Assembly (NCBI RefSeq): GCF_003952385.1
Contig: NZ_CP034444.1
Location: 4,464,001 to 4,528,000 of the forward strand
DNA: 64,000 nt
Direction of reading: 5' to 3'
Origin: Mesorhizobium sp. M1D.F.Ca.ET.043.01.1.1
GTDB taxonomy: Bacteria > Pseudomonadota > Alphaproteobacteria > Rhizobiales > Rhizobiaceae
A model generated the notes under the pieces. The model did not search any database. It saw only the letters and a list, made by a program, of their open reading frames with translations, and was not told where the DNA came from. The position numbers and the translations under genes are program-made. Below, piece after piece: positions 31,879-53,225 of the stretch (its first letter is position 1; each line of letters starts with the position of its first letter).

Positions 31879-31895
31879 TGTCCTTGATAAACACA
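31879..31895. promoter_or_regulatory. Candidate activator site upstream of the pnt promoter
   Basis: TGTCCTTGATAAACACA. It matches TGTACTCGATGAATACA at 41770 in 13 of 17 positions, including both TGT and ACA ends. Its centre lies about 120 bases upstream of the predicted transcription start at 32007, a normal distance for a sigma-54 enhancer-binding protein. The likely partner is the activator encoded at 40081. The link is inferred from sequence similarity and position. Confidence 0.5.
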
Positions 31896-31942
31896 TGATG
31901 TTGCCGCCGGAAACACCGGGATCCCCCTGCCTGGAAACAGAC

Positions 31943-31965
31943 GAGTAGCTGGTAGCCAGTTACTC
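31943..31965. promoter_or_regulatory. 10-bp inverted repeat just upstream of the pnt -24 element
   Basis: GAGTAGCTGG (31943-31952) and CCAGTTACTC (31956-31965) are complementary except at one position, with TAG between them. It ends 16 bases before the -24 box, so a bound protein could block or help sigma-54 polymerase. It could also form a small hairpin in a read-through transcript. Confidence 0.5.
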
Positions 31966-31980
31966 GGCCTCCATCCTCTC

Positions 31981-31996
31981 TGGCACGGGACTTGCT
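31981..31996 (+). promoter_or_regulatory. Sigma-54 (-24/-12) promoter of the pnt-SDR operon
   Basis: TGGCACGGGACTTGCT fits the consensus TGGCACG-N4-TTGCW at every fixed position, with GG and GC exactly 12 bases apart. Transcription would start near 32007. This rules out start codons at 31992 and 32004 for pntAA and supports the TTG at 32037. Confidence 0.8.
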
Positions 31997-32036
31997 ACTG
32001 AGCGTGGCAACGAACCCAACAGAAAGATCAACCCGT

Positions 32037-33323
32037 TTGGCAGCGACGCAAACCATATTCATCCCTCGTGAGCTTGATGCGAACGAGCCGCGTGTCGCGG
32101 CCTCGCCTGAGACGGTGAAGCGGCTGGTTGGTCTGGGCTTCGAGGTGATCGTGGAGAAGGGCGCCGGCCTCGGCTCGCGCATCATCGATCAGGATTTTGC
32201 CGCGGCGGGTGCCGCGATCGGCAAGGCTGCCGACGCGTCGAAGGCCGACGTGGTGCTCAAAGTGCGCCGGCCGACGGATGCGGAGCTGAAGGGCTACAAG
32301 CCGGGCGCGGCCGTCATCGCCATCATGGACCCCTACGGCAACGATGCGGCGGTGGCCGCGATGGCCAAGGCCGGCATCACCGCCTTCTCGATGGAGTTCA
32401 TGCCGCGCATCACCCGCGCGCAGGTGATGGACGTGCTGTCCTCGCAGGCCAATCTCGCCGGCTACCAGGCGGTGGTCGACGCGGCCGCCGAATATGACCG
32501 CGCGCTGCCGATGATGATGACGGCGGCGGGCACCGTGCCGGCGGCCAAAACCTTCATCATGGGCGTCGGCGTCGCCGGCCTGCAGGCGATCGCCACCGCG
32601 CGCCGCCTCGGCGCCGTCGTCACCGCCACGGACGTGCGCCCGGCGGTGAAGGAGCAGGTGCAGTCGCTCGGCGCCAAGTTCCTGGCGGTCGAGGACGAGG
32701 AGTTCAAGGCGGCCGAGACCGCCGGCGGCTACGCCAAGGAAATGTCGAAGGAATACCAGGCCAAGCAGGCGGCGCTGACCGCCGAGCACATCGCCAAGCA
32801 GGACATCGTCATCACCACGGCGCTGATCCCCGGCCGTGCGGCGCCGAAGCTGGTCTCCGCGGCCATGGTCGCCTCCATGAAGCCGGGCTCGGTGATCGTC
32901 GATCTCGCCGTCGAGCGCGGCGGCAATGTCGAGGGCGCGGTGCCCGGCAAGGTCGTGACGACGGAAAACGGCGTCAAGATCGTCGGCCATCTCAACGTGC
33001 CTGGCCGCGTCGCGGCCTCGGCATCACTGCTCTATGCCAAGAACCTCTACGCCTTCCTCGAGACGATGGTCGACAAGGCAACGAAAGAGCTTGCCATCAA
33101 GCGCGACGACGAACTGGTCAAGGCGACGATGCTGACCGATGGCGGCCAGGTCGTGCATCCGAACTTCTCCAAGGCGGCGGAGGCGCCGCGCACCGAACCG
33201 GCGGCCATTCCCGCCACGATCATTGTCGCTGACGCCTCGACCAAGCCGGTCGCGAAGAAGACAGCGGCGAAGAAGCCTGCCGCAGCCAAGTCGGCCTCGT
33301 CCAAGTCGAAAGGGACCGCGTGA
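32037..33323 (+). CDS. pntAA: NAD(P) transhydrogenase subunit alpha part 1 (NAD-binding domain I)
   Basis: 428 residues from TTG 32037, chosen because homologs begin at [10 protein letters not shown] and the sigma-54 promoter places the transcript start near 32007. The open frame extends to 31992, but that part overlaps the promoter. Features: [22 protein letters not shown], the RQD-loop-type region, [19 protein letters not shown] (NAD-binding) and [12 protein letters not shown]. The C-terminus is a Lys/Ala-rich linker. With pntAB and pntB it forms the proton-pumping transhydrogenase that makes NADPH from NADH at the cytoplasmic membrane. Its own promoter and neighbours suggest an accessory copy. 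Confidence 0.9.
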
Positions 33324-33745
33324 TGGAACAGCTGCAAAAAGCCCTCGACCAGCTCGATCAGGCGACCGCCGCCGTCCGCCTTGCGGTGCAGGATCTGGCC
33401 AATGCGCCCGCCGGCGCCGAGGCTGCCGGCAACGCGGCGCATGCGCTCTCCGGCGGCGCCATCGACCCCTTCGTCTTCCGCTTCGCCATCTTCGTGCTGG
33501 CGATCTTCGTCGGCTATTATGTCGTCTGGTCGGTGACCCCGGCGCTGCACACGCCGCTGATGGCCGTCACCAACGCCATCTCCTCGGTCATCGTCGTCGG
33601 CGCGCTGCTTGCCGTCGGCATCGCGGCTTCCGGCCTTGCGGCGGGCTTCGGCTTCGTCGCCCTGGTGCTGGTCTCGGTCAACATCTTCGGCGGCTTCCTC
33701 GTCACCCAGCGCATGCTGGCCATGTACAAGAAGAAGGAAAAGTGA
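33323..33745 (+). CDS. pntAB: NAD(P) transhydrogenase subunit alpha part 2 (membrane domain)
   Basis: 140 residues from ATG 33323, overlapping the pntAA stop by one base. After a ~50-residue polar lead come three or four membrane segments: [41 protein letters not shown] and [21 protein letters not shown]. This is the small membrane subunit of the three-gene transhydrogenase found in alphaproteobacteria. The C-terminus ends in a Lys-rich stretch. Co-transcribed with pntB one base downstream. Confidence 0.9.
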
Positions 33746-33746
33746 C

Positions 33747-35144
33747 GTGACCGTCAATCTCGCCTCCTTCCTCTATCTGGTCTCCGGCATCCTGTTCATC
33801 CTGGCGCTGCGTGGCCTCTCGCATCCGACCACCAGCCGCCAGGGCAATCTCTACGGCATGATCGGCATGGGCATTGCTCTATGCACGACGCTGGCGCTGG
33901 CGCTGCCCTCGGCTGGGCGCTTCGGCCTGATCGTGCTGGGTCTCGCCATCGGCGGCGGCGTCGGCGCCTATGTGGCCCGCCGCATCGCCATGACCTCGAT
34001 GCCGCAGCTTGTCGCCGCCTTCCACAGCCTCGTCGGCTTCGCCGCCGTCATGGTGGCGGCCGCCGCCATCTATGCGCCGGAAAGCTTCGGCATCGGCACG
34101 GCGGGCGACATCCATGCCCAGGCGCTCATCGAGATGAGCCTGGGTGTGGCCATCGGCGCCATCACCTTCACCGGCTCGGTCATCGCCTTCCTCAAGCTCG
34201 ACGGCCGCATGTCGGGCAAGCCGATCATGATCGGCGGCCGCCATCTCATCAACATCGCGCTCGGCATCGCCCTTGTGGTGCTGATCGTGCTGCTCGTCAC
34301 CACCGAATCCAAGCTGGTCTTCTGGCTGATCGTCGCCGCCTCGCTGGTGCTCGGCGTGCTGTTGATCATCCCGATCGGCGGCGCCGACATGCCGGTCGTG
34401 GTGTCGATGCTGAATTCTTACTCGGGCTGGGCTGCCGCGGCACTTGGCTTCACGCTCGGCAATCTGGCGCTGATCATCACCGGCGCGCTGGTCGGCTCGT
34501 CGGGTGCGATCCTGTCCTACATCATGTGCAAGGGCATGAACCGCTCCTTCATCTCGGTCATCCTCGGCGGCTTCGGCGGCGAGACGGCGGCAGTTGCCGA
34601 CGACGGCGTCGAGCGCACCGTCAAGCAGGGCTCGGCCGACGACGCCGCCTATCTGATGATGAACGCGCAGAAGGTCATCATCGTGCCCGGCTACGGCATG
34701 GCGGTCGCCCAGGCGCAGCACGCGCTGCGCGAGATGGCCGACAAGCTCAAGGCCAACGGCGTCGAGGTGAAATACGCCATCCATCCGGTCGCCGGCCGCA
34801 TGCCCGGCCACATGAACGTTCTGCTCGCCGAGGCCAACGTGCCTTATGACGAGGTGTTCGAGCTCGAGGACATCAACTCCGAATTCGCGCAGGCCGACGT
34901 CGCCTATGTCATCGGCGCCAACGACGTCACCAACCCGTCCGCGCGCGACGACAAGGCCTCGCCGATCTTCGGCATGCCGATCCTCGACGTCGACAAGGCC
35001 CGCACCTGCCTCTTCGTCAAGCGCTCGCTCGGCTCCGGCTACGCCGGCATCGACAACACGCTGTTCTACAAGGACGGCACCATGATGCTGCTCGGCGACG
35101 CCAAGAAGATGACCGAGGAAATCGTCAAGGCCATGGATCACTGA
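33747..35144 (+). CDS. pntB: NAD(P) transhydrogenase subunit beta
   Basis: 465 residues from a GTG at 33747; earlier in-frame codons lie over pntAB. The N-terminal half has about eight or nine membrane segments. The C-terminal NADP-binding domain III shows VIIVPGYGMAVAQAQHALREMA, HPVAGRMPGHMNVLLAEANVPYD and VIGANDVTNPSARDD. Together the three subunits couple proton flow to hydride transfer from NADH to NADP. The coding sequence uses mostly C or G at third positions, more than the flanking SDR genes, which suggests recruitment of a chromosomal-type copy. Confidence 0.92.
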   Translation: MTVNLASFLYLVSGILFILALRGLSHPTTSRQGNLYGMIGMGIALCTTLALALPSAGRFGLIVLGLAIGGGVGAYVARRIAMTSMPQLVAAFHSLVGFAAVMVAAAAIYAPESFGIGTAGDIHAQALIEMSLGVAIGAITFTGSVIAFLKLDGRMSGKPIMIGGRHLINIALGIALVVLIVLLVTTESKLVFWLIVAASLVLGVLLIIPIGGADMPVVVSMLNSYSGWAAAALGFTLGNLALIITGALVGSSGAILSYIMCKGMNRSFISVILGGFGGETAAVADDGVERTVKQGSADDAAYLMMNAQKVIIVPGYGMAVAQAQHALREMADKLKANGVEVKYAIHPVAGRMPGHMNVLLAEANVPYDEVFELEDINSEFAQADVAYVIGANDVTNPSARDDKASPIFGMPILDVDKARTCLFVKRSLGSGYAGIDNTLFYKDGTMMLLGDAKKMTEEIVKAMDH

Positions 35145-35157
35145 CGATGGGTGGCTT

Positions 35158-35967
35158 TTGACTGAGTTTTCAACGACGAATGAAGCTCTCGCGCCGAAGA
35201 AGAAGGTTGCACTGGTGACCGGCGCTAGCCGCGGCATTGGTCGGGCTATCGCGTTGGAACTCGCAAGAGCCGGCTTTTCCCTTTGCTTGGCTGCGCGCGA
35301 CAGCCAGTCTCTCGCGGAAACGCAACAGTCTGCGACAGCACTTTCTGGCAAGCCAGCAGCTGCCATTGTTGCAGATCTGAAAAAGCCTGACGCTCCACAC
35401 CGTTGCATCGAGTTTGCACTAGGTCAGTTCGGCCAGCTCGATCTTCTGGTCAACTGCGCGGGCGCTACCAGGCGTGGAGAGTTTCTGGATTTTACCTTCG
35501 AGGATTGGCTGGATGGGTTCGCGCTCAAGTTTCACGCGAGCGTGCTTCTGTGCCGGGCGGCGTGGCCGCATCTGGCTTCACGCAGCGGCTCAATAATCAA
35601 CATTATCGGCTCGAGCTCTCGCACGCCAAGCGCAGATTTCACAATTGGCGGCGCGGTCAATTCCGCGCTGCTGAACCTTACAAAGGCCTTGGCTGACAAG
35701 GGAAGTCGCGATGGCGTTCGTGTGAACGCAGTAAACCCGGGCTATATCAAATCGGGTCGGTTGTACGCCCGTATCGAGTCCCTGATGAAAGAGCGACAGT
35801 TGAGCGAAAGCGCCGCCGAGGAAGAACTGCTCACGGCCTACCAGATCGGACACTTCGGATCCCCACAGGATGTAGCGCAGCTTGTTGCTTTTCTTGCCTC
35901 CGATCAGTCTGCCTACATCCAGGGCGCCACAATCGATATCGACGGCGGCGCTACCCGTGGGATCTAG
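35158..35967 (+). CDS. Atypical SDR-family protein lacking the YxxxK motif
   Basis: 269 residues from TTG 35158, 13 bases after the pntB stop; no ATG in frame gives a full N-terminus. The cofactor motif TGASRGIG is at residues 21-28, with NCAGATRRGEF and the ending QGATIDIDGGATRGI. At the usual active site the sequence reads SSSRTPSADFTIGGAVNSALLNLTK: Phe stands for Tyr and Gly for the following Lys. This belongs to an SDR subgroup with a different active site, or binds without classical chemistry. Being right after pntB on the same transcript, it may use the NADPH made there. Confidence 0.78.
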   Translation: MTEFSTTNEALAPKKKVALVTGASRGIGRAIALELARAGFSLCLAARDSQSLAETQQSATALSGKPAAAIVADLKKPDAPHRCIEFALGQFGQLDLLVNCAGATRRGEFLDFTFEDWLDGFALKFHASVLLCRAAWPHLASRSGSIINIIGSSSRTPSADFTIGGAVNSALLNLTKALADKGSRDGVRVNAVNPGYIKSGRLYARIESLMKERQLSESAAEEELLTAYQIGHFGSPQDVAQLVAFLASDQSAYIQGATIDIDGGATRGI

Positions 35968-36026: not shown

Positions 36027-36043
36027 ATTGATTTGCGACGCCT

Positions 36044-37033
36044 CTAAAGCGACACAACCACTTTGCCAAATTGCTCGTTCGATTCGAGATATCGATAGGC
36101 CTCAACGATATCTGCAAAATCAAAGGTCTTGGCGATAACAGGCTTCAGTGATCCGTCAGTCAGTCCGTCGACAATGAATGTCTTGGCAGCTTCGAGGCGG
36201 CGAGGGTCCTGAACGATCTCGTGTACAAGATAACCGCGCAGCGTCAGACATTTGCCCAACACCGTGAATAGCGGGAAGGGGGTGGGCTCGGGGCTGAGCC
36301 CACCATATTCGAGCAGAATGCCACCGCGGGACATGGCAGCGGTCAGCGGATTGAAAATCGAGCCACCAACAGCGTCGAGAACGACCCGCACGCCGGCCGA
36401 GCCGGAAATTGCCTTCAGCCGGGCTTCCAGGTCTTCCTCGTTTGCCGCGATCACGTGGGTAGCGCCGAAACCGAGCAACGCCTGCTTCTTGGCTGAAGAT
36501 CGCGTGATGGCAATTGGCGTGGCGCCAACCTTATTCGCGATCTGAATGGCTGCTAGTCCGACACTGCTTGACGCTGCAGTAATGGCGACGAAGTCCCCGG
36601 CGCGCAGTCGGGCGATCTCGATCAAAGCGCCATACGCCGTGAGAAACTGCATCCATAAAGCGGCAGCAGCTTCGAAGCTGAGGCTCGCAGGGTGCTTGAC
36701 GATGTGCACGGCCGGGAATGTGGCGAGTTCGCCGTGGGCCGGATATTCGATCATCGAGATCGGCGGAATAGTACTGACAACGTCACCTGGCGCGAAGCCG
36801 CTGACGCCAGCACCGACGGCATCAACGATGCCGGCGGCCTCGAGGCCAAGACGCGAGGGCAATTCAGGGGTCTCGATATAGGTGCCGGCGCGCATCAGCG
36901 CTTCGGCGCGATTGAGGCCGATGGCCTTCACGCGAATGCGGACTTCCCGAGGGCCAGGAGGCGCCACATCGATAGTGTCGATGCGCAGGACTTCCGGCCC
37001 ACCAAACTCATGAAAACGAACGACTTTTGTCAT
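36044..37033 (-). CDS. Zinc-independent MDR alcohol dehydrogenase/quinone oxidoreductase
   Basis: 329 residues from ATG 37033, preceded by AGGAGTCACA; an upstream in-frame ATG at 37072 lacks a ribosome-binding site. MDR pattern: KVVRFHEFGGPEVLRID, GLNRAEALMRAGTYIE, GLEAAGIVDAVG and the NADPH-binding AITAASSSVGLAAIQIANKVGA, with no zinc-ligand Cys or His. NADPH:quinone reductase-like enzymes of this type also reduce enones. Divergent from the LysR gene at 37134, which probably controls it; the gap has a dyad suited to a LysR protein. Confidence 0.85.
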   Translation of the reverse strand: MTKVVRFHEFGGPEVLRIDTIDVAPPGPREVRIRVKAIGLNRAEALMRAGTYIETPELPSRLGLEAAGIVDAVGAGVSGFAPGDVVSTIPPISMIEYPAHGELATFPAVHIVKHPASLSFEAAAALWMQFLTAYGALIEIARLRAGDFVAITAASSSVGLAAIQIANKVGATPIAITRSSAKKQALLGFGATHVIAANEEDLEARLKAISGSAGVRVVLDAVGGSIFNPLTAAMSRGGILLEYGGLSPEPTPFPLFTVLGKCLTLRGYLVHEIVQDPRRLEAAKTFIVDGLTDGSLKPVIAKTFDFADIVEAYRYLESNEQFGKVVVSL

Positions 37034-37081
37034 TGTGACTCCTAACGATTTCCATCGAATTGGCTTTACCATGCGTTAATT

Positions 37082-37133: not shown

Positions 37134-38030
37134 ATGGACCGTCTCACAAGTATGACCGCTTTCGTCAAAGCCGTAGATCTCGGTTCGTTCGAAGCGGCGG
37201 CCTCTGCCCTTCAGATGTCCGGGCCGATGGTTGGAAAGCATGTGCGCTTTCTGGAGGAACGGCTCGGTGTTCGATTGCTGAACCGCACCACGCGAAGGCA
37301 GAGCCTGACCGACATTGGCAAGATCTACTACGAGCGATGCCGCATCATTCTTACCGAGGCTGAAGCCGCCGACGCGCTCGCAGCCGATCAGCTCTCGGAG
37401 CCACGAGGTAAGCTGAGAGTTACAATGCCGGTCCATTTTGGCCGGCAATGCGCTGCCCCCGTGATGCTGAATCTGGCCAAGCGCTATCCTGGATTGGAGT
37501 TGGATCTCTCTTTCACCGATCGGCTTGTCGATCTTGCTGAGGATGGGTTCGACCTCGCAGTCAGGACAGGAGAATTGACCGATAAGGCCGGCCTGATGGC
37601 CAGGCGTCTCGCGCAGCAACACATGATCGTCTGTGCTTCGCCGGGCTACATTGCCGAGCGTGGCCTGCCGCAAGATCTGTCCGATATCATGCAGCATGAG
37701 ACAGTGGTCTATTGGCGCGCCGGTCCAGTTCCTCCTTGGCTGTTTCCGCGCGATGGGGAAGCGCCTTTCGAGATTGTTCCGTCGAGCCGATTTCGCTTCG
37801 ATGATCTCAATGTAATTGCCGACGCCGCCGCAGCAGGGGCCGGCCTTGCATGGCTGCCCTCATGGCTGGTGCGCGCTTATATCGCCAATGGCAGCTTGAG
37901 GGATGTGTTTCCGACGGCGCCGAGCTTTCCTTACGACGCCTATGCTGTCTGGTTGCGGGCGCCGCTGATGCCAGTCAAGTTGAGGCTTGCCATAGACGAA
38001 CTGGCAGCATCCTTGCCGAGATTGATGTGA
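37134..38030 (+). CDS. LysR-family transcriptional regulator
   Basis: 298 residues. The N-terminal helix-turn-helix is MTAFVKAVDLGSFEAAASALQMSGPMVGKHVRFLEERLG, followed by LLNRTTRRQSLTDIGKIYY. The effector domain begins near residue 90 (GKLRVTMPVHFGRQ) and contains DLAVRTGELTDKAGLMARRL. This is the CrgA/AaeR-like subgroup common in proteobacteria. It is divergent from the MDR gene at 36044 and probably regulates it, for example in response to an electrophile or quinone; that is inference. Confidence 0.88.
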   Translation: MDRLTSMTAFVKAVDLGSFEAAASALQMSGPMVGKHVRFLEERLGVRLLNRTTRRQSLTDIGKIYYERCRIILTEAEAADALAADQLSEPRGKLRVTMPVHFGRQCAAPVMLNLAKRYPGLELDLSFTDRLVDLAEDGFDLAVRTGELTDKAGLMARRLAQQHMIVCASPGYIAERGLPQDLSDIMQHETVVYWRAGPVPPWLFPRDGEAPFEIVPSSRFRFDDLNVIADAAAAGAGLAWLPSWLVRAYIANGSLRDVFPTAPSFPYDAYAVWLRAPLMPVKLRLAIDELAASLPRLM

Positions 38031-38121: not shown

Positions 38122-39237
38122 TCATTCGGCCGCCGGTTTGAAGGTAAGGTGGCCGTCCGCGTCCTTGATCCATTGATAAACGATGAACCCTGGAAGCTTC
38201 GGATCGCCCTTGTCATCAAAAGCGATGCCGCCAAGCACCGTCTTGAAGGGCCCTTTTTCATGCAGGGCCCTAGCCACTGTCTGGGGATCGTTCGAGCCCG
38301 CTGCCGCCGCTGCCCCAGCGATCACCTGGACCGCCGCGTAGGAATAGAGTGTATAGGCTTCGGGATTAAATCCTTGCGCCCTGAATCTGGCAACCACGTC
38401 CTTGTTGTCGGCATCAAGCGTGGGATCCGGGCCAAAGGTATGCAGCGTACCGACAACCGCTTCCCCAGCGATTGACGGCAACTCATTAGACACAATGCCA
38501 TCCCCGGACATCAGTGTTGCAGAGAGGCCCTGGTCCTTCATCTGGCGGATGAGCAATCCCGCCTCGGTGTGCATGCCGCCCCAATAGACGAGCTTGACGT
38601 TTGCGTTTTTGAGTTTGCCAATCAGGGTCGAAAAGTCCTTCTCACCGAAGTTGACGCCTTCATAGGCAACCTCCTTGAGGCCGGATTCGTTCAGCACACG
38701 TTGCGTTTCGTCGGCCAGGCCTTGTCCGCCTGGCGTCTTGTCATGGACAATCGCGATATTGGCGCCTGCAAAATGTTTGGTGATGTACTTGGCCGCGACC
38801 ACACTTTGCTGATCGTCACGGCCGCAGGTGCGGAAAGTGTTCCACATGCCGCGCTCAGTGTAGTTCGGCTTGGTCGTGGCGGGCGTGACCGCCAGGATTC
38901 CGTTTTCGGCATAGATCTCCGAAGCCGGGATAGAGATTCCCGCGTTGAAGTGACCGACGACGAAGCGCACACCATCAGCGACAAAGCCATTGGCAACCGA
39001 GATACCCTGCCTGGGGTCCGAAGCATCGTCGCCGATCTTCAGCTTGATTTGCTCCCCATTCACGCCGCCCGCCGCGTTAATGTCGGCAACGGCCATCTCC
39101 GCGCCTTTCTGGAGCTGCGCGCCAAAGGCGGCATTGCCACCAGTGATAGGCCCAGCCACGCCGATGAGAAGATCGGCTTTGCTGGTTGCGGTAAAGGTAA
39201 TCAGAATGCCCAAGGCAATCCCGATTGATCGGAACAT
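38122..39237 (-). CDS. Branched-chain-amino-acid-type ABC transporter substrate-binding protein (LivJ/LivK family), orphan
   Basis: 371 residues with a signal peptide ([24 protein letters not shown]). The mature part is a Peripla_BP_6 protein: [77 protein letters not shown] hinge and [19 protein letters not shown]. Ligands of the family include amino acids, aromatic acids, amides and cyclic carboxylates. No permease or ATPase genes are nearby, so it must use components encoded elsewhere. It is 76 bases downstream of the small gene with a sigma-54 promoter, and is likely part of that transcript and of the uptake side of the same pathway. Confidence 0.87.
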
Positions 39238-39313: not shown

Positions 39314-39904
39314 TCAGCGCACGAGCGGTAGCGCTTCGGGCTGCTCGGTGATCACCAGATCGGAGATGGGTTGGTAGAAGGCCTCATTAACGCCTGCGAT
39401 TGCAGCGTAAGCGGTATCCGATTTTTCAACGGATAGGCCGAGAAGCGGGGTGTGCCTGTCGAGGCCGACAGATCGGAACCATCTGGTGCCGGGTCGCTCG
39501 GCATCGATTTGGGAATGGGCATCCGTCGCGGATGCTTCCGACGCGCCCTCGAATGAAACCAAGCGCAACAACTCGCCTGGTCGCAGCCTGGGTGCCGCCA
39601 CCGAATGCCCGTTACGGGCTTCAAACAAGTCGCGGCTCCAATCGACGATATAGGGGCGCCATTCGAAGAAGCCCCAGTCGCTTGTATATTCCTTGGTGGT
39701 GAAGGCCTCCGCTGAAGCGATCGTCCAGAAGGCGAGATAATTTCGCCCCGATCCCGAGACGCGTCGAAATCGCTGCACGGTCAGGAAGTGTGGCTTTGCC
39801 AACATCTGCCCCAGCTTCGGACCGCTATACCACTCGTTCCAGGCGGCCTCGCGTGAGGCGTCGTTGAAGTTGCAGCGTACGACATAGGCGAGATTCATAT
39901 TCAT
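39314..39904 (-). CDS. Hypothetical protein, probable dimeric alpha/beta-barrel (EthD/DUF4286-like) fold
   Basis: 196 residues. No sure family assignment. The sequence [49 protein letters not shown] has the shape of ferredoxin-like dimeric barrel proteins (Dabb/EthD type). [18 protein letters not shown] repeats the pattern of YLAIYEVDSPD in the small protein at 55816. A second half from ~110 may be another such module ([13 protein letters not shown]). GAGGATGAAT precedes the ATG, and a sigma-54 promoter lies 33 bases upstream. It heads the transcript with the ABC binding protein. Function unknown. Confidence 0.7.
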
Positions 39905-39936: not shown

Positions 39937-39952
39937 TGCAACCAATGTGCCA
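39937..39952 (-). promoter_or_regulatory. Sigma-54 (-24/-12) promoter for the 39904 gene and ABC binding protein
   Basis: On the minus strand this reads TGGCACATTGGTTGCA, matching TGGCAYR-N4-TTGCW with GG and GC 12 bases apart. Transcription would begin near 39926 and give a ~22-base leader. An upstream inverted repeat, CTGT at 40040-40043 and ACAG at 40057-40060, lies about 124 bases from the start; it does not closely resemble the sites at 31879 and 41770. Confidence 0.72.
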
Positions 39953-43995: not shown

Positions 43996-43999
43996 CGCG

Positions 44000-45616: not shown

Positions 45617-46380
45617 GTATCACCCTCGATCGGAAGGACGATTGCGCCATCCTGACGATAGATCGCCCGGAGAAACTCAACGCACTGTCGTTTTCGGTGC
45701 TCGCCGAGTTGGACGGCGTGCTGGAACAAGCCGCAAGCCTGCCTGTGCGCGCCCTGGTCGTTACGGGCGCCGGTGACAAGGCGTTCTGCGCCGGAGCCGA
45801 CATTGAAGAGTTACGCGGGCGCAGCCAGACCGAACAGCAGCGCGGCGCAGAGTTTGGTCAGGCGGTGTTCGAGAGACTTTCACATTTTCCCGCGCCGTCG
45901 ATCGCCGCCATCAACGGATATGCATTCGGCGGCGGGCTGGAGCTCGCCATGGCATGCACCTTTCGTATTGCCGTACGGACCGCGCGTCTGTCGTTGCCCG
46001 AGATCAAGCTTGGCCTAATTCCGGGTTATGGGGGAACCCAGCGCTTGCCGAGACTGGTTGGTGAGGCGCGCGCAATGGAACTCATTTTGACCGGGCACAT
46101 GATCGATGCCGAGGAAGCCTTACGGATCGGCCTCGTCAACAGCGTGACTGATGGGGATCCGGTGGCAGCAGCTATCGAATTCGCAGGGGCATTCATGCGC
46201 CATGGCCTGGTGGCGCTGCGGTTGGCGCGATCCGCGGTTGCGAGGGCGCTCAACAATCCGATCCAGGAGGGGCTCAGGATCGAAGCCGATCTGTCAACCC
46301 TGGCCTATCAGACACATGATTCTGAGGAAGGCATGGCCGCCTTTCTGCAGAAGCGCAAGCCGGAGTTTCGAGATGCCTGA
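45613..46380 (+). CDS. Enoyl-CoA hydratase, BadK-like
   Basis: 255 residues. Unlike the BadI-like neighbour it keeps both catalytic glutamates of hydratases: GGGLELAMAC and LPEIKLGLIPGYGGTQRLPR. VVTGAGDKAFCAGADIEELRG forms the oxyanion hole. It would add water to a cyclic or linear 2-enoyl-CoA; in an alicyclic route this is the BadK step on cyclohex-1-ene-1-carboxyl-CoA. Start ATG overlaps the ligase stop (ATGA); the stop lies inside the following SDR gene. Assignment to hydratase is firm, the exact substrate is not. Confidence 0.86.
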   Translation: MSITLDRKDDCAILTIDRPEKLNALSFSVLAELDGVLEQAASLPVRALVVTGAGDKAFCAGADIEELRGRSQTEQQRGAEFGQAVFERLSHFPAPSIAAINGYAFGGGLELAMACTFRIAVRTARLSLPEIKLGLIPGYGGTQRLPRLVGEARAMELILTGHMIDAEEALRIGLVNSVTDGDPVAAAIEFAGAFMRHGLVALRLARSAVARALNNPIQEGLRIEADLSTLAYQTHDSEEGMAAFLQKRKPEFRDA

Positions 46381-47080
46381 GCAGCAGATCATCGTCACCG
46401 GCGCGAGTAAGGGGATTGGCGCTGCCATCGTTTCAGACCTCGATCGGCGCGGCTTCATTGTGGCTGGTCTTTCACGATCCGGCGAAGTGCCTGCGGGCTA
46501 TGGGCTTGCTTGCGACGTCTCCGATCCGCATTCGATTGCAGCCGCAGTGGATGCGGTGGCGGCCAGAGGCTACATCTCTGGCGTTGTGAACTGCGCCGGA
46601 GCGCACGCATCAGGCCCGAGCACGGACTTGCCGGTCGAAGGCTTTGAAAACACCATGCGCCTCAATGCGACGTCGGTGCTGGCCGTCTGCCAGCAAGCCT
46701 ATCGCCATCTGGTTCGTGCCGAGACGTCGCTGATAGTTAATATCGGCTCCTTTTACGACAAGCTCGCCGTGGCAGAGAACGTCGCTTACTGCGCCTCGAA
46801 AGCGGCGGTCGGCGCGATCACCCGTTGCCTCGCGGCCGAATGGGCCAAGGACGGGGTCCGGGTCATCAATATTGCCCCTGGATATATCGAGACTGATCTT
46901 AACCGCGAGTTTCTTGCCAAGGACAAGATCCGCGCTTGGATCGGCAAACGAGTACCGGTCGGACGGACCGGCAAGCCGGATGAAGTAGCCAGGCTCGTCG
47001 GCGCGCTGTTCGCTGAAAACATCGGCTTTTTGAGTGGCGAGACGATCTATCTGGACGGTGTGCAAGGGATCAATCTGTAA
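46373..47080 (+). CDS. SDR-family dehydrogenase, BadH-like
   Basis: 235 residues from ATG 46373, overlapping the hydratase gene by 8 bases. TGASKGIG at residues 9-16, NCAGAHASGPS, the catalytic Ser in NIGSFYDK and Tyr-x-x-x-Lys in AYCASKAAVG, ending SGETIYLDGVQGINL. By position it would oxidise the 2-hydroxy-CoA ester formed by the hydratase to the 2-keto ester that the BadI-like enzyme cleaves, as BadH does. SDRs of this size serve many pathways, so the role is inferred from context. Confidence 0.83.
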   Translation: MPEQQIIVTGASKGIGAAIVSDLDRRGFIVAGLSRSGEVPAGYGLACDVSDPHSIAAAVDAVAARGYISGVVNCAGAHASGPSTDLPVEGFENTMRLNATSVLAVCQQAYRHLVRAETSLIVNIGSFYDKLAVAENVAYCASKAAVGAITRCLAAEWAKDGVRVINIAPGYIETDLNREFLAKDKIRAWIGKRVPVGRTGKPDEVARLVGALFAENIGFLSGETIYLDGVQGINL

Positions 47081-48246
47081 TGAAGTTCCTCGATCAACTC
47101 GACCGCCGGCGCGGCTGGTCGTCAGACGAGCGCATGGTTCTCGACCAGGTGCGCCGGCTTTGCCAGGAATTGATCGGCCCAAGGGCCGAACACCATGACC
47201 GGACGGGCGAGTTTCCCACCGAGAACCTCGCCGCGCTGAACGCCCTTGGCCTGAACGCGATCTTCATTCCGGAAGCCTATGGCGGCTCGCCGATGTCATA
47301 CCGGCTCTACCTCGAAGTCGTGAAAACTATTGCGGAGGCTTGCGCGTCGACTGGCATTATCTACGCAACGAACTTCCATGGCATGAAGCCTCTGGTGGAC
47401 TTCGGCAGCGAAGAACAGAAAGCGAGGCTGCTGCCACGCATCGCGGAAGGCGGTATCGGTGCGCTGGCGATTACCGAGAACAGCGCCGGTTCGGATGCTA
47501 CGGGCATGAAGACGCGCTTTAGGCCCGACGGTGACGAGATTGTCGTCGTTGGCAGCAAGCTCTTCATCACCAATGGCGATGTCGCCGACCTCATCCTGCT
47601 GTTCGGCAAATGGACTGAGATCGACGATGCCCGCGCGGCGATATCGGTTCTGGTGTTCGAGAAGGGAACGCCAGGCTTCGAGGTGGTGCGGCTCGAAGAC
47701 AAGATGGGGCATCGCGGTTCGTCGACGGCTGCGATCTCGTTTCACGAATGCCGGGTTCCACGCGCAAATCTCTTAGGCAACCCCGGGGACGGGCTTCGCA
47801 TCCTGCTTGCGTCACTCAACAAGTCGCGCCCCAGCATCGCGGCGCATGCGCTGGGCATTGCCCGCGCAGCGTTCTCCGATGCCGTCGCATACTCGAACCA
47901 GCGACGTCAATTCGGCCACGCCTTGCTTGAATTTCAGGGCAACCAATTCACCTTCGCCGACCTATCGGTGGAGCTCGCCATGGCGGAGCTGTGGCTCGAC
48001 TATGTCGGCCGGCTGGTCGACGACGGAGAGACCGACTTTGGGCTGGAGGCCTCCATGGCGAAAATGCGAGCATCTGACCTTGCCATGCGTCTCAGCACCG
48101 AAGCGGTCCAGATGCACGGCGGCTACGGCTATTGCAGGGACTACCGCGTGGAACGCCTGATGCGTGACGCCAAGATCACGCAGATCTGGGAAGGCACCAA
48201 TCAACTGCATCGTCAATTGATCGGCAGGAGTCTCATCGCCAAATGA
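47080..48246 (+). CDS. Acyl-CoA dehydrogenase
   Basis: 388 residues. The start overlaps the SDR stop (TAATG). Family signatures: IPEAYGG, ALAITENSAGSDATGMKT, NGDVADLILLFGKW, CRVPRANLLG, AYSNQRRQFGHALLEFQGNQF, QMHGGYGYCRDY and the catalytic Glu371 in QIWEGTNQ. FAD-dependent, passes electrons to ETF. Here it would introduce the 1,2 double bond into the ring or a dicarboxyl-CoA. Glu at the catalytic position is the usual residue; no ring-specific change can be read. Confidence 0.9.
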   Translation: MKFLDQLDRRRGWSSDERMVLDQVRRLCQELIGPRAEHHDRTGEFPTENLAALNALGLNAIFIPEAYGGSPMSYRLYLEVVKTIAEACASTGIIYATNFHGMKPLVDFGSEEQKARLLPRIAEGGIGALAITENSAGSDATGMKTRFRPDGDEIVVVGSKLFITNGDVADLILLFGKWTEIDDARAAISVLVFEKGTPGFEVVRLEDKMGHRGSSTAAISFHECRVPRANLLGNPGDGLRILLASLNKSRPSIAAHALGIARAAFSDAVAYSNQRRQFGHALLEFQGNQFTFADLSVELAMAELWLDYVGRLVDDGETDFGLEASMAKMRASDLAMRLSTEAVQMHGGYGYCRDYRVERLMRDAKITQIWEGTNQLHRQLIGRSLIAK

Positions 48247-49121
48247 GCAACATAAAGACAGTAGGGGTGTGTGGTGCGGGCGGCACCATGGGGGCCGGCA
48301 TCGCGATTGTGGCGGCGCGGGCGGGCTTCCGCACCATTTCTTTCGACACATCGGCTGAGGCGCTCGAGCGGTCAAGGCAGAGCACGGCCACCTTCTTCGG
48401 CAAGTCCGTGGAACGGGGCAAGATGACGACTGCGGAGCGGACTGCCATTCTCGACAACATGCGGTCGACTACCGCGCTTGATGATCTGGGTGAATGCGAC
48501 CTGGTCATAGAGGCGGTGTTCGAGGACCTGGAGACCAAGCGCCATCTGCTTGGAGCGCTCGACAGAGTATGCGGGCCGCAGACAATTTTCGCCTCAAACA
48601 CCTCGACCTTGTCCATCACCGAGATTGCGGCTGGTTCGAGGCATCCGGAACGGGTGGTCGGCATGCATTTTTGCCTGCCGGCACAGTTGATGAAGCTCAT
48701 CGAGATGTCGCCGGGCCTGCTGACTTCGACCGAGACCTTCGCTGCTGCCTGGGATTGGACGGAGGTCTGCGGTCAGATCCCGGTCAAAACCCAAGACAAG
48801 CCGGGCTTCATCCTCAACGCGCTCCTGGTGCCATTCAACAATGACGCCATCCGGGCCGTGGAAGCCGGCGTTGCATCGCCGGCAGACATCGACAAGGCGA
48901 TCAAGGTGGGCCTCGGTTACAAGATGGGGCCGCTGGAGTTGCTCGACCTGATCGGCCTCGACACGCAGATAAGGCTGTCGGAAGCCTTCTATCCCATCAC
49001 GCTCGACGCACGCGCAGCGGCGCCGCCACTGCTGCGGCGGATGGTTGCCGCGGGCCTGCTCGGGCGAAAGTCGGGAAGGGGGTTCTTCAGCTATGCCGGC
49101 GACAAGATGTTCGGAGCTTGA
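48243..49121 (+). CDS. 3-hydroxyacyl-CoA dehydrogenase, single C-terminal domain form
   Basis: 292 residues, overlapping the acyl-CoA dehydrogenase by four bases (ATGA). NAD-binding GAGGTMGAGIAIVAARAG, then IEAVFEDLETKR, FASNTSTLSI, catalytic His in GMHFCLPAQLMKLIEM and a C-terminal helical domain ending GLLGRKSGRGFFSYAGD. The Pro-Ala-Gln after HFC differs from the common HFFNPVP. This is the short type (HbdA-like). The following gene encodes a free-standing second C-terminal domain, so the two together correspond to the long PaaH type at 50946. Confidence 0.87.
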   Translation: MSNIKTVGVCGAGGTMGAGIAIVAARAGFRTISFDTSAEALERSRQSTATFFGKSVERGKMTTAERTAILDNMRSTTALDDLGECDLVIEAVFEDLETKRHLLGALDRVCGPQTIFASNTSTLSITEIAAGSRHPERVVGMHFCLPAQLMKLIEMSPGLLTSTETFAAAWDWTEVCGQIPVKTQDKPGFILNALLVPFNNDAIRAVEAGVASPADIDKAIKVGLGYKMGPLELLDLIGLDTQIRLSEAFYPITLDARAAAPPLLRRMVAAGLLGRKSGRGFFSYAGDKMFGA

Positions 49122-49122
49122 G

Positions 49123-49764
49123 ATGCGCTACACACTGGTAAAGAAAGGCAACAGCCCATCGTTCCCCGACGGCGATCCCTTCCTGGTGGCCGCGGTTGCC
49201 GACCCGGATGCAGAGATGGTGATCTACCTGTCGGGGACCCGGCTGCAAAGCGACAGCTCGAAGTCTGCTATCCTTGTCGAGCTCGGCCTTGAAAGCCTCG
49301 GCTTCCATACAGGCGAAGCGGCAGGAGAAGAGGGCTCCAACATCCTCGGCTTCGCGCGCTATCGGAACGGGGCGGACCTGCCTTCCTCCCTGATCGAGCT
49401 CGTCACTCAGCCCAAGACTTCCCCCCAAGCCGTGGCTTGCGCGCGCGCCCTGCTGGAATCGGCCGGGTTCACCGTCACGATTTGCAGCGATCAGGCAGGC
49501 CGCATCATCGATCGGTTGGTCCGGCCAAAATACAACGCGGCGCTGCGGCTGCTCGATGAAGGCCTTGCCAGCCAGAAGGACATCGATCTGACCTGTCGCC
49601 TTGGCCTCGGTTATCCCGACGGACCGATTGAACGCACGGTGCGCGGCGGTCTTGCCTATCATCATGACGTCTGCAAGGCCCTGTTCGAAAGCTATGGCAC
49701 CCCGGCTTTCGCGCCAGCGCGCCGTGCCGTTGTCGCTGCCCAGCGCAGGGAGGCAGGCGATTGA
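49123..49764 (+). CDS. Free-standing 3-hydroxyacyl-CoA dehydrogenase C-terminal domain protein
   Basis: 213 residues from ATG 49123, one base after the previous stop; GGAGCTTGAG serves as the binding site. No GxGxxG is present. Residues ~115-200 match the HCDH C-terminal domain: ICSDQAGRIIDRLVRPKYNAALRLLDEGLASQKDIDLTCRLGLGYPDGPIE. The arrangement equals the linker plus second C-terminal domain of the fused enzyme at 50946. It probably binds the upstream dehydrogenase and completes its dimer-like C-terminal half. Alternatively it is a regulatory or scaffolding paralog. Confidence 0.75.
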   Translation: MRYTLVKKGNSPSFPDGDPFLVAAVADPDAEMVIYLSGTRLQSDSSKSAILVELGLESLGFHTGEAAGEEGSNILGFARYRNGADLPSSLIELVTQPKTSPQAVACARALLESAGFTVTICSDQAGRIIDRLVRPKYNAALRLLDEGLASQKDIDLTCRLGLGYPDGPIERTVRGGLAYHHDVCKALFESYGTPAFAPARRAVVAAQRREAGD

Positions 49765-50888
49765 GACCACTGCAGGGACTGCGTGTACTTGACTTCTCGA
49801 CGCTGCTGCCTGGTCCGCTGGCTTCGCTGTTGCTGGCCGAGGCCGGCGCCGACGTCGTCAAGATTGAACGCCCGGGGACAGGCGAAGATATGCGTGGCTA
49901 CGAGCCGCGATGGGGACATGACAGTGTCAATTTCGCCATGCTGAACCGAGGCAAGAAAAGTCTTGCTCTGGATCTGAAGCTGGACAGTGACCGCGCCGTG
50001 TTGGCGCCGTTGCTGGAGAGCGCCGACATTGTCCTGGAGCAATTCCGACCCGGTGTCATGCAGCGGTTGGGACTTGATTACGCGACAGTCTCGAAGATCA
50101 ATCCGAAGCTTATCTATTGCTCGATAACGGGTTACGGACAAAGCGGCCCCAAGCGCGACGTGGCCGGGCATGATCTGAACTATATTGGCGACACCGGCCT
50201 GCTGTCGCTCTCGATGGGAACACCACAGGTGCCGGTCATTCCGCCGGCGCTGGTGGCCGACATTGCGGGTGGCGCCTACCCCGCGGTGATGAATATTCTG
50301 CTGGCTCTGGAGGAGCGTCGCGCGACCGGGAAGGGTCGTCATCTCGATATTGCGATGACCGACAATCTGTTCACTTTCATGTACTGGGCGATGGGCAGTG
50401 GCCTGGTCACGCAGAAATGGCCTGGCAACGGTACCGATCTTGTAACGGGCGGCACCCCCCGCTATCGCCTCTATCCCACGCAGGACGCCCGATTCGTCGC
50501 CGCGGCGCCGATCGAACAGAAATTCTGGGATCTGTTTTGTGACCTGATTGGTTTGCAGCAGCATTATCGCGACGACACGATCGATCCATCAGCGACTGTC
50601 CGCCAGGTCACGACGATCATTTCATCGCGTCCCTCGCAGTACTGGCGAGACAGTTTCACCGGTCGCGACTGTTGTTGCTCGATTGTCGCGACCCTCGAGG
50701 AGGCGCTGGCCGATCCTCACTTTGCCGCCCGCGGCGTTTTCAGCCATATCGTGACGAACGAGGCCGGCCAGACGCTGAAGGCCTTGCCTGTGCCGATCAA
50801 CGCCGGGTTCCGTGGCGATGCAGGGCAGCCCCTGGCAGCCCCAATCCTCGGTGGGTTCACGACGGGACCAAGCGGATCGGAGCGATGA
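49761..50888 (+). CDS. CaiB/BaiF-type CoA-transferase, second copy
   Basis: 375 residues from a TTG at 49761 that overlaps the previous stop (TTGA), with GGGAGGCAGG upstream; no suitable ATG exists near. Family features: GLRVLDFSTLLPGPLASLLLAEAGADVVKIERPG, NRGKKSLALDLKLDSD, YCSITGYGQSGPKRDVAGHDLNY and the Asp in LVADIAGGAYPAVM. It differs strongly from the first copy at 41902, so the two likely use different acids, for example entry substrate and a dicarboxylic intermediate. This Asp is the expected nucleophile. Confidence 0.85.
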   Translation: MRPLQGLRVLDFSTLLPGPLASLLLAEAGADVVKIERPGTGEDMRGYEPRWGHDSVNFAMLNRGKKSLALDLKLDSDRAVLAPLLESADIVLEQFRPGVMQRLGLDYATVSKINPKLIYCSITGYGQSGPKRDVAGHDLNYIGDTGLLSLSMGTPQVPVIPPALVADIAGGAYPAVMNILLALEERRATGKGRHLDIAMTDNLFTFMYWAMGSGLVTQKWPGNGTDLVTGGTPRYRLYPTQDARFVAAAPIEQKFWDLFCDLIGLQQHYRDDTIDPSATVRQVTTIISSRPSQYWRDSFTGRDCCCSIVATLEEALADPHFAARGVFSHIVTNEAGQTLKALPVPINAGFRGDAGQPLAAPILGGFTTGPSGSER

Positions 50889-50945
50889 GGCAGTTTTGCA
50901 ACCGAACTTATCTGCGGAAAAATCAACAACAGGACAACCAGCAAA

Positions 50946-52382
50946 ATGAGCGCTCTGTCACAAGATTCACTTGTCGCCGTGGTCGGTGCGGGCGCAATGG
51001 GATCAGGTATAGCTCAGGTGGCGGCGACAGCGGGACATCCGGTTGTCATCTACGATGCAATCCAAAGCGCTGCGGCACGCGGCCTCAGGCGCATAGAAGA
51101 CAGCCTTGCTGGTCTCGTGTCAAAGCGGCGACTTGGCGACGATGAGCGCCGAAGCATTCTTTGTCGGATCAGGCCGGCTGAGAGTTTAGACGGGCTGGCC
51201 GGCGCCAGATTGTGCGTTGAAGCAATCAATGAGGACCTTGCGGCAAAGCGCTCATTGTTTGCTGCGGTTGAGGACAAGCTGGAGCCCAGTTCCATCCTCG
51301 CCACCAATACGTCGTCCCTGTCGATCCCCGCCATTGCGGCCGGCCTCGCAAGTCCGCAACGCTTTGCCGGCATGCATTTCTTCAATCCTGCACCGGTCAT
51401 GAAACTTGTGGAGGTCGTCCAGGGACCGGCAACATTGCCCGAGGTCGCCACCACCATATTCGATACCGCTCAGGCATGGGGTAAAGCGGCGGTCCTTTGC
51501 CGGTCGACCCCGGGCTTCATCGTCAACCGCATCGCCCGGCCTTTCTATGGCGAGGCCCTGCGCATCCTCGAGGAGGGTGTGGCCGACGTCTCGACGATTG
51601 ACGCTCTGATGGTGGAGAGCGGTGGCTTTCGCATGGGACCCTTCACCTTGATGGATCTCATCGGGCAGGACGTCAATTATGCCGTCTCCTGTTCTGTTTT
51701 CGAGGCTTACTACGGCGATCCGCGTTATCGACCTTCCCTGCTGCAAAAGGAGCTGGTCGAAGCCGGCTGGCTCGGTCGCAAGACCGGGCGCGGCTTTTAT
51801 ACTTATTCCGACGGTGTTCAGTCTGGTATCGATCGGTCCGATGCCGATTCTGCCGCGGTGACTGCGGCCGGCTACCGGCTCGCGGAGCGCATCGAAGGTG
51901 TACGCTTCCAGCGCACGGATGGGCGTATGGCAGCCGAGGTCGCGCGAACCCTTGGCGAGCCGGTCATCCTCCACGACCTCGCCCTTGATGCCGTTAGCAG
52001 CAGGAGGATCGGTATCGCCGCCTCGCCGGATCTACCAGGCGCGCTGCTGCAACGCGTGATTAATGCGCTCCAGGAAGACGGGCTAGCGGTCTCCTGCCTG
52101 AGTGATCACCCCGGCCTTGTTGTGATGCGCGTTGTCGCGATGCTTGTGAACGAGGCCTATGAGGCAGCAATGCACAAGGTCGCGACGCCCGACGCCATCG
52201 ACATGGCCATGCGCCTTGGTGTCAACTATCCGATTGGCCCCATCGCCTGGGGGCAGCGCATTGGCCTGAACACGGTGCTTCAGGTCCTCGAGGCTGTTCT
52301 TGAGCGCACAGGCGACACTCGATACCGGCCGTCGCTTGGCCTGAGGCGAGCCTGCCTGGCCGACGAGCTTTTGTCGGCGTGA
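50946..52382 (+). CDS. 3-hydroxyacyl-CoA dehydrogenase, PaaH-type with two C-terminal domains
   Basis: 478 residues. NAD motif [45 protein letters not shown], catalytic His in [17 protein letters not shown], first C-terminal domain ([21 protein letters not shown]) and a second one from about residue 300 ([24 protein letters not shown]). PaaH-type enzymes oxidise 3-hydroxyadipyl-CoA and similar dicarboxylic CoA esters, which suits the pimelyl-to-glutaryl steps expected after ring opening. 57 bases follow the CoA-transferase gene, with no sign of a terminator. Confidence 0.88.
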
Positions 52383-52418
52383 CGACTGCATTTTTCCTAA
52401 GACTGTGAGGTGGGACAG

Positions 52419-53225
52419 ATGACGCGAATGAATGGCAAAGTGGCTTTCATCACCGGCGCCGGCGGCGGGCAGGGGGCTGCCGAAGCCGAACTGTTTGCCC
52501 GGGAAGGAGCGTCGCTTGTTCTGAGTGATGTCGATGCGAGCAGGGTCGCTGCTATTGCAGCCAAGGTCGAGAAGGCTGGAGCGCGGGCGATATGGTGCAA
52601 GCAGGATGTGACTATCGAGGCTGATTGGGTCTCGGCGGTCGAGAAAGCACAGCAAACATTTGGCGCCCTGCACGTCCTGGTCAACAACGCAGGCACCATC
52701 AGCCGGCAAGGGATCGCAAATACTGAGCTCGCCAATTGGAACAGAACGCTCGATGTGAACCTGACAGGCGCGATGCTGGGCATGAAGCATTGCGCGCCGG
52801 CCATGCGCGACGCCGGCGGAGGTGCTATCATCAACGTGTCCTCGACGGCCGGACTTGGCGCTCACTATGACGCCGCCTACACGGCAAGCAAATGGGGCCT
52901 TCGCGGTCTGACCAAGTCGGCGTCGGTGGAGTTCGTCGAATGGAACATTCGCGTCAACTCCATTCATCCTGGCCAGATTGTCGATACGAGCTTCTACCGC
53001 GAAGGATCACCGGGGCACGCTGAATCTGGCCGGCTAAGTGTGCCGATGCAGCGCCAGGGCACGCCGTTGGAATGCGCCCAACTTGTGCTGTTTCTCGCTA
53101 GCGATGAGGCCAGTTACATCACCGGAGCCGAAATCGCCATTGACGGCGGTTATTCTGCAGCCGGCGGTCTCTGGTTGCGCAACCGTCTGCGCGACACTTT
53201 AGCTGCCAGTTCGCCGCACCCCTAG
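52419..53225 (+). CDS. SDR-family oxidoreductase, last gene of the CoA-ester operon
   Basis: 268 residues from ATG 52419; a GTG at 52410 is the alternative. TGAGGGQG at residues 12-19, NNAGTISRQG, Ser of NVSSTAG and Tyr-x-x-x-Lys in AYTASKWGLRG, SIHPGQIVDTSFYREGS, and the ending TGAEIAIDGGYSAAGG followed by a ~20-residue Arg-rich tail that may be altered. Close to 3-alpha-hydroxysteroid/cyclohexanol-type SDRs. It may act on a ring hydroxyl group. Gap to the previous gene is 36 bases, so probably in the same transcript. Confidence 0.82.
   Translation: MTRMNGKVAFITGAGGGQGAAEAELFAREGASLVLSDVDASRVAAIAAKVEKAGARAIWCKQDVTIEADWVSAVEKAQQTFGALHVLVNNAGTISRQGIANTELANWNRTLDVNLTGAMLGMKHCAPAMRDAGGGAIINVSSTAGLGAHYDAAYTASKWGLRGLTKSASVEFVEWNIRVNSIHPGQIVDTSFYREGSPGHAESGRLSVPMQRQGTPLECAQLVLFLASDEASYITGAEIAIDGGYSAAGGLWLRNRLRDTLAASSPHP

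Follow-up and report, generated by a model that had tools for sequence, protein, structure and literature searches.

A predicted sigma-54 regulon with a CoA-ester operon and a duplicated transhydrogenase operon in Mesorhizobium sp. M1D.F.Ca.ET.043.01.1.1

The stretch analysed here (the window) comprises 64,000 nucleotides of Mesorhizobium sp. M1D.F.Ca.ET.043.01.1.1 (contig NZ_CP034444.1, positions 4,464,001 to 4,528,000). It holds a gene for a sigma-54 enhancer-binding activator (enhancer-binding protein, EBP), an operon of CoA-ester enzymes, a pair of genes for a small protein and a substrate-binding protein, and a pnt transhydrogenase operon accompanied by two genes of short-chain dehydrogenases/reductases (SDRa and SDRb). 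Four -24/-12 elements stand in front of these genes (Table 1). A first-pass annotation, made from the letters, had proposed a sigma-54 regulon with one activator and three promoters, and this observation of sigma-54 promoters together with an activator is confirmed. It is quite probable, judging from the motifs described below, that the EBP acts at all four promoters through TGT-N11-ACA sites and that the genes form a local regulon.

Activator and -24/-12 promoters

The gene at 40081 had been annotated as an activator with Walker A and GAFTGA motifs, and its domain content agreed with this. The sigma-54 interaction domain (PF00158, E 1.6e-67), an AAA lid and a C-terminal Fis-type helix-turn-helix (HTH; PF02954, E 1e-9) were all found. 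The Walker A sequence GESGTGKE was invariant in 19 sequences, and GAFTGA, present in the EBP, was replaced by GSFTGA in 3 of 13 orthologues. The listed open reading frame (ORF) extends to 41787. The likely ATG start, chosen by eye, is 41715, and both nearby upstream activating sequences (UAS; 41737 and 41770) would therefore be intergenic. Weak Pfam PAS hits and the predicted topology suggest a sensor at the N-terminus; it is called only PAS-like because of this basis and of the low overall confidence of the structure model (pTM 0.42). Among the NCBIfam models listed at E <= 1e-40, no curated cut-off was reached. PrdR was the closest, and an assignment of the EBP as PrdR was rejected (NF041552, 379.3 bits, cut-off 795).

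At the thresholds used, the EBP has orthologues in 6 of 297 family, 3 of 397 order, 3 of 146 genus and 3 of 385 class genomes, each count including the window's own genome. The locus is thus regarded as accessory. Many further EBP relatives are present in protein databases. Thirteen EBP loci were examined: the window, G772 (a close relative with a near-duplicate of the window locus), G680 (also Mesorhizobium), G090, G422, G133, G033, Hoeflea L007, G583, G940, G1190, G222 and G281.

The three YTGGCAYR-N4-TTGCW elements of the first-pass annotation were placed correctly within one base and are the sole strict matches in the window (shuffles gave a mean of 0.02 and a largest count of 1 in 100). 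Over the whole genome, TGGCAYRN4TTGCW matched 20 times and its reversed control twice. A looser -24/-12 pattern matched five times in the window, with 0.40 expected. One of the two extra matches is the TGGCATGGTTATTGC element before SDRa, which the strict pattern missed because a G comes after TTGC; the other, TGGCAY-N5-TTGC at 936-950 (+), lies far from the cluster studied here. The SDRa promoter has an identical sequence in G772, and G680 holds TTGGCACG-N4-TTGCA at that position. The G680 counterpart of the 39937 promoter is TTGGCGCG-N4-TTGCA. All four elements combine TGGCAY/TTGC with a fixed GG-GC distance and lie in front of genes. Ahead of the CoA transferase gene CaiB1, a -24/-12 element was seen in 13/13 EBP loci, with the variant TGGTAC in G033.

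Table 1 Features of the cluster (window coordinates; bits for sites refer to the weight matrix described in the text)
Feature	Position	Strand	Remarks
SDR dehydrogenase (SDRa), divergent from pnt	31007-31753	-	PF13561
Fourth -24/-12 element, before SDRa	31804 to 31790	minus	looser pattern; absent from first-pass annotation
Predicted UAS TGTCCTTGATAAACACA	31879-31895		19.5 bits, best of 64 kb
Weak partner site TGTTGCCGCCGGAAACA, 20 bp from 31879	31899-31915		4.5 bits
-24/-12 promoter of pnt operon	31980-31996	+	strict match; identical in G772
pntA part 1, TTG start	32037-33323	+	NF006942 417.1 bits (cut-off 383, reached)
pntA part 2, membrane part by position	33320-33745	+	lies in 98% duplicated block
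pntB	33756-35144	+	99% protein identity to second genomic copy
SDR gene (SDRb), 13 bp after pntB	35158-35967	+	family match
LivK-type substrate-binding protein	38122-39237	-	PF13458
Small protein, predicted two-repeat dimeric alpha/beta barrel (ABM/NIPSNAP-like)	39314-39904	-	model pLDDT 91.8
-24/-12 promoter of small-protein and binding-protein genes	39937-39953	minus	strict match; conserved in G772
Weak predicted UAS, 53 bp from -24 of 39937 promoter	40006-40022		10.3 bits
Weak partner UAS, 31 bp from 40006	40037-40053		9.5 bits
Sigma-54 enhancer-binding activator (EBP)	40081-41715	minus	PAS-like N-terminus, AAA+ with GAFTGA, Fis HTH
Predicted UAS TGTTGTCAGAAAAGACA, 33 bp from 41770 site	41737-41753		13.9 bits; absent from first-pass annotation
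Predicted UAS TGTACTCGATGAATACA, 72 bp from -24	41770-41786		17.5 bits, second of 64 kb
-24/-12 promoter of CoA-ester operon	41858-41874	+	strict match
CaiB-type CoA transferase 1 (CaiB1), start MSHNHM	41902-43158	+	family match
MenB/BadI-like crotonase, candidate ring hydrolase	43216-43995	+	below both equivalog cut-offs
Acyl-CoA ligase (open frame; start uncertain)	43790-45616	+	PF00501
Enoyl-CoA hydratase	45613-46380	+	family match
SDR (open frame; family match from near 46385)	46151-47080	+	family match
Acyl-CoA dehydrogenase	47080-48246	+	near cyclohexane-1-carbonyl-CoA dehydrogenase, NF043006 292.8 bits (cut-off 650)
3-hydroxyacyl-CoA dehydrogenase	48243-49121	+	family match
Protein with 3HCDH C-terminal domain (start chosen by analyst)	49117-49764	+	domain match
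CaiB-type CoA transferase 2	49761-50888	+	family match
PaaH-like 3-hydroxyacyl-CoA dehydrogenase	50946-52382	+	family match
SDR, best hit trans-4-hydroxycyclohexanecarboxylate dehydrogenase	52410-53225	+	NF053702 229.3 bits (cut-off 400)

Paired TGT-N11-ACA sites

The gaps between EBP and CaiB1 were read by eye and each yielded a TGT-N11-ACA palindrome with inner CYT/ARG symmetry. A symmetric weight matrix was made from seven sites of other genomes, also chosen by eye, none of them from the window or G772. In the 64 kb this matrix ranked 31879 first, 41770 second, 17124 third (15.8 bits) and 41737 fourth. The two leading positions are the 17-base sites that the first-pass annotation had pointed out, which share 13 of 17 positions (by eye); its UAS consensus occurs with zero mismatches at these two places only. 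The match at 17124 is isolated, distant from the cluster and unrelated to it. Of 108,638 background positions in the genome, none reached 17.4 bits, one reached 13.9 bits and 15 reached 10.3 bits. When each training site was left out in turn, its rank in its own locus was 1 for G680, G090, G583 and Hoeflea, 2 for G422 and G033, and 7 for G133. In G940 and G1190, which were found later and lie outside the training set, the two best sites both fell in the EBP-CaiB1 gap, upstream of the -24/-12 element.

The 31879 site is common to two promoters, at 85 bp from the pnt -24 and 74 bp from the SDRa -24. The counterpart of the 41737 site in G772 scores 19.9 bits. Each of 14 main sites had a -24/-12 element (pattern TGGYR-N6-TTGC) 29-118 bp off on the gene side, and for 14/14 the best second site within 70 bp was 20, 31, 32 or 33 bp away; in 200 shuffles of the flanks, those spacings came up on average for 1.03 sites and at most for 4/14. 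Some of the partners are weak (4.5 bits at 31899, -1.5 bits in G133). The four cluster promoters have a predicted UAS at 10.3-19.5 bits. Elsewhere in the genome there are 17 further strict sigma-54-like elements, and 40-180 bp upstream of these no site scored above 6.7 bits (17/17). From these motifs we infer that the EBP binds the sites and that the promoters depend on RpoN.

The arrangement around the activator was found to be conserved. CaiB1 was present in 13/13 EBP loci, and in 11/13 the EBP directly adjoins it, with a -24/-12 element and a TGT-N11-ACA site in between. The genes after CaiB1 are mostly retained (MenB/BadI-like crotonase, ligase, hydratase, SDR, acyl-CoA dehydrogenase and hydroxyacyl-CoA dehydrogenase). 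As exceptions, the contigs of G583 and G940 stop early, the stretch from G281 yielded no crotonase and the one from G1190 no SDR. In G222 and G281 the EBP lies about 10-17 kb away from CaiB1. The proposal of one activator with several sigma-54 promoters is therefore backed both by the 11 loci and by a motif, trained elsewhere, that picked out both sites. A gene that resembles rpoN by eye lies divergent from the EBP orthologue in G222 (L088 ~6780-8223, minus) and has its own -24/-12 element (8331, minus).

Several observations weigh against a regulon of this extent. The spacing classes were named after the data had been seen, and the spacing test was for this reason redone with a null that picked its own best four spacings; with the near-duplicate G772 dropped, 13/13 sites were observed at the named spacings, compared with a null mean of 5.3 and a maximum of 9/13 in 1000 shuffles. 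The G133 training site is weak (8.3 bits when left out, rank 7). G222 and G281 have a -24/-12 element before CaiB1 and no convincing UAS in the 480 bp scanned; their best scores, 11.6 bits at about 305 bp upstream of the element and 3.6 bits, were counted as no site. The UAS pair of the 39937 promoter lies within the background range, and this promoter is the weakest case of the four. In the SDRa-pnt gap of G680, the site scores 12.2 bits and its best partner, 23 bp off, 3.4 bits (outside the 14 sites). The promoter of an SDRb homologue in G090 has no close UAS. The 17-mer alone is not enriched genome-wide (34 matches, 41 in the reversed control), so the regulon looks local and no wider one is claimed. 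A compound search for TGGC-N7-TTGC with TGT-N11-ACA at 60-90 bp returned six rows, four at the studied locus and two elsewhere.

Part of this evidence would fit an activator that controls the adjacent CoA-ester operon only and leaves the sigma-54 promoters at pnt, SDRa and 39937 to a different activator. The weak sites at the 39937 promoter and in the G680 SDRa-pnt gap point that way, as does a survey of Clostridiales, passages of which report that most EBPs (170/263) control one operon (PMC6615313). However, the best motif match in 64 kb is the 31879 site, though training had used CaiB1-side sites from other genomes, and the 40006 site has a counterpart of 13.4 bits in G772 and one of 16.7 bits at the corresponding G680 promoter. 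This restricted control is considered unlikely.

It is highly improbable that the TGT-ACA sites belong to NifA and the locus to a nitrogen-fixation regulon. The half sites of NifA are likewise of the TGT type and go with -24/-12 promoters, and the NifA-RpoN regulon of Mesorhizobium loti, as given in parts of PMC3538637, has a TGGCACG-N4-TTGCW consensus like the present one. The genome, a single 7.1 Mb contig, has three RpoN matches, which are counted for NifA. A transhydrogenase cluster of Azoarcus BH72 is, according to passages of PMC3916325, strongly induced in nitrogen fixation, with no obvious RpoN/NifA site predicted by the authors. In contrast, the described NifA spacing is TGT-N10-AGA, with nif/fix targets (PMC3538637, in part), and the sites here have N11 with inner CYT/ARG symmetry beside the EBP in 11/13 loci. 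NifA sites were rejected on the N11 spacing, which was seen in 11/11 loci with a site. That the promoter and UAS resemblances are due to chance is scarcely credible: with one mismatch allowed, the 17-mer occurs often in the genome, but the shuffle test, the prediction in two genomes outside the training set and the spacing test all counter this explanation.

The duplicated pnt operon

Over 3097 bp, the region 32048-35144 of the window matched a second pnt operon of the same genome, around G000:C1 2944118, at 98.0% identity. The duplicated block begins at about codon four of pntA and ends with the pntB stop, and the TTG start of pntA lines up with the GTG start of the paralog. The query for pntA part 1, being the first part of a split PntA, misses TIGR00561 (367.7 bits, cut-off 444.4), and pntA part 2 gave no hit in the NCBIfam search at E <= 1e-40, the sole threshold tried. 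The product of the 33756 gene scored 543.2 bits with NF006974 (cut-off 689; best hit residues 52-509, the query having extra N-terminal residues). It is still read as PntB because all 146 genus genomes match this model. SDRb is probably in the same transcript as pntB, and an SDRb homologue (46%) with its own -24/-12 element is found behind the EBP in G090. SDRa shows 98% identity in G772 and 76% in G680; in the latter genome, too, it points away from a pnt copy.

The pnt paralog has neither a sigma-54 promoter nor a UAS. It is preceded by a small gene, which we take to be oxidase-subunit-like. The same small gene stands before pnt in G772 and in G680 (contig C78) and marks one of the pnt copies in each of four further genomes, and on account of this conserved neighbour the paralog is called housekeeping. 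When both pnt copies were compared between G000 and G772, 129 informative sites grouped by genome, 9 by locus and 2 otherwise. The by-locus sites are restricted to the first 400 and last ~500 bases of the alignment, and bins 600-2000 show zero differences between the two G000 copies. Given that G000 and G772 have a common upstream region and common neighbours, gene conversion is the simplest reading, and the copies have apparently been homogenised in this way.

The first-pass annotation had placed pnt in the regulon, and this link gained independent support from the cluster-linked copy of G680. Although cut by a contig end, this copy has a divergent SDRa homologue and a -24/-12 element in each direction, and it lies on the opposite side of the operon compared with the window. 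More than one pntB match was found in 15/146 genus genomes (some of them draft fragments), namely in 3/3 EBP-bearing members and 12/143 others (0.0009 by counting). In all three EBP-bearing members, one pnt copy is accompanied by sigma-54 promoters and by a dehydrogenase gene in divergent orientation. In the ~4.5 kb fetched around the second pnt copies of G749, G721, G725 and G781, which have no EBP, neither SDRa nor TGGCA-N6-TTGC was found.

Against a tie between duplication and activator stands the fact that pnt is also duplicated in genus members lacking the EBP, and the duplication seems to be recurrent in the genus. The 12 EBP-less genomes with more than one pntB match are G537, G721, G725, G735, G740, G747, G749, G751, G754, G761, G781 and G800. 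Outside the genus, seven EBP-bearing genomes were tested and have one pntB each, so that pnt looks like a genus-level addition and not like the core of the regulon. Another contig of G680 (L133, G680:C71, 1-8379) carries a pntB 3' end, then nadA-nadB-nadC and bioB-F-D-A-like genes (by eye from translations). If it continues the cluster pnt copy, genes of NAD synthesis and biotin would follow the sigma-54 promoter.

Taken on its own, the proposal that a catabolic EBP regulon captured a second copy of a housekeeping proton-pumping transhydrogenase is favoured with moderate confidence. The promoter would have changed to a sigma-54-dependent, substrate-induced one whose enhancer also serves a divergent SDR, and the enzyme would have stayed unchanged via gene conversion.

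Pathway, known systems and significance

The best guess for the substrate, from gene content, is an alicyclic acid opened by a BadI-like step. The 43216 crotonase scored 222.5 bits with BadI (TIGR03210, cut-off 467.6) and 244.4 with MenB (NF005637, cut-off 380). AliA, a cyclohexanecarboxylate-CoA ligase, was the third-best model of the ligase (TIGR03208, 237.8 bits, cut-off 792.3), and cyclohexane-1-carbonyl-CoA dehydrogenase the second-best of the acyl-CoA dehydrogenase, for which AliB gave 141.9 bits (TIGR03207, cut-off 575.35). It speaks against this assignment that the pathway-specific models BadI, MenB, AliA, AliB and ChcB1 all stayed below cut-off, and membership in the bad-ali pathway was rejected on these scores. 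Open frames at 53226-54798 (+) were rejected as genes; they had no Pfam match above cut-off and, by eye, resemble the antisense of an ORF at 53431-54636 (-).

The first-pass annotation had also joined uptake and ring or chain degradation in the unit. Ring degradation is plausible from the MenB/BadI-like enzyme; uptake is doubtful, with a lone binding-protein gene that is present in G680 and missing from the G772 locus. The small protein had no match in the Pfam scan, and its best Foldseek hit was 5f9p_A (E 1.7e-6, 12% identity). For nine of its homologues, the length of the longest contig equals that of an EBP homologue, and this points to a stable partnership between the small protein and the activator. 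Between pnt and the small-protein operon, a LysR gene (37134-38030, +) lies divergent from a quinone-oxidoreductase-like gene (36044-37072, -). The pair is conserved in G772 and G680 and has no strict sigma-54 element in the window.

In the proposed mechanism, the EBP would sense a ligand via its PAS-like N-terminus and bind TGT-N11-ACA palindromes, mostly in pairs on one helix face. Its AAA+ ring would open RpoN-RNA polymerase at four promoters. Three of these would serve the CoA-ester operon, the small-protein/binding-protein operon and the pnt-SDRb operon; the fourth, in divergent orientation and using the same 31879 site as pnt, would serve SDRa. The CoA-ester operon probably activates and oxidises an alicyclic carboxylic acid, whose ring the MenB/BadI-like hydrolase may open and which beta-oxidation would finish. 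The pnt operon would be a duplicate of the housekeeping transhydrogenase under an inducible promoter, its protein kept near-identical by gene conversion; with both, the cell could thus adjust transhydrogenase dosage on this substrate. The substrate is what we infer from the genes present, and the transhydrogenase may either make NADPH or dispose of it.

Similar activators have been described. Clostridiales EBPs recognise TGT/ACA sites with 10-12 bp spacers, and the PrdR, YcbP and AhcR groups have, as here, a Fis-HTH EBP that mostly lies close to its operon, TGT/ACA sites that often number several per promoter, -24/-12 promoters and small regulons of one to six operons (PMC6615313, in part). 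In Desulfovibrio the spacer is 9, 11 or 12 bp (passages of PMC4641369). Unlike the Clostridiales groups, this EBP belongs to another orthologous group, is alphaproteobacterial and has a regulon that includes a duplicated transhydrogenase. The operon resembles the bad-ali clusters of Rhodopseudomonas palustris and Aromatoleum sp. CIB, which, in the sections of PMC9795900 considered, unite a ligase, an acyl-CoA dehydrogenase, a hydratase, a dehydrogenase and a BadI/MenB-type crotonase. Those clusters are under MarR-type BadR or, in Gram-positives, a TetR-like regulator, and in strain CIB the operators lie over -35 boxes (same sections), whereas here an EBP and sigma-54 are found; the present enzymes lie well below the BadI, AliA and AliB cut-offs, and two CaiB transferases are added. 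No MarR/TetR match was obtained among the genes scanned in 31-53 kb, a scan that covered part of the ORFs, with the EBP and LysR present.

Transhydrogenases linked to a substrate or to RpoN are also on record. PntAA of Methylobacterium extorquens is more abundant on chloromethane (PMC3621897), and an RpoN-type promoter is listed for the soluble sthA of Bradyrhizobium (PMC13207237); the relevant passages of both describe no duplicated pnt operon behind a catabolic-EBP promoter. In the open literature searched, neither a duplicated pnt operon under an EBP nor sigma-54 control of a bad-ali-like pathway was found, which does not prove absence from print. As TGT/ACA EBP sites, small regulons and such transhydrogenases have been described, the mechanism is of a known kind. 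What looks new is the orthologous group, the gene content and the captured transhydrogenase.

The analysis provides a testable binding rule for an alphaproteobacterial activator group, consisting of paired TGT-N11-ACA sites 20 or 31-33 bp apart and 29-118 bp from a -24/-12 element. It links this group to a likely alicyclic-acid pathway that apparently does without the BadR-type regulator of the bad-ali clusters. It also presents a clear example in which duplication would have brought a core redox enzyme into a catabolic regulon. The identity of the inducer would make answerable the question when a cell needs extra transhydrogenase. If the reading is true, the regulation of the two paralogs has diverged with divergence of the proteins suppressed, and this would be tied to one degradative pathway.

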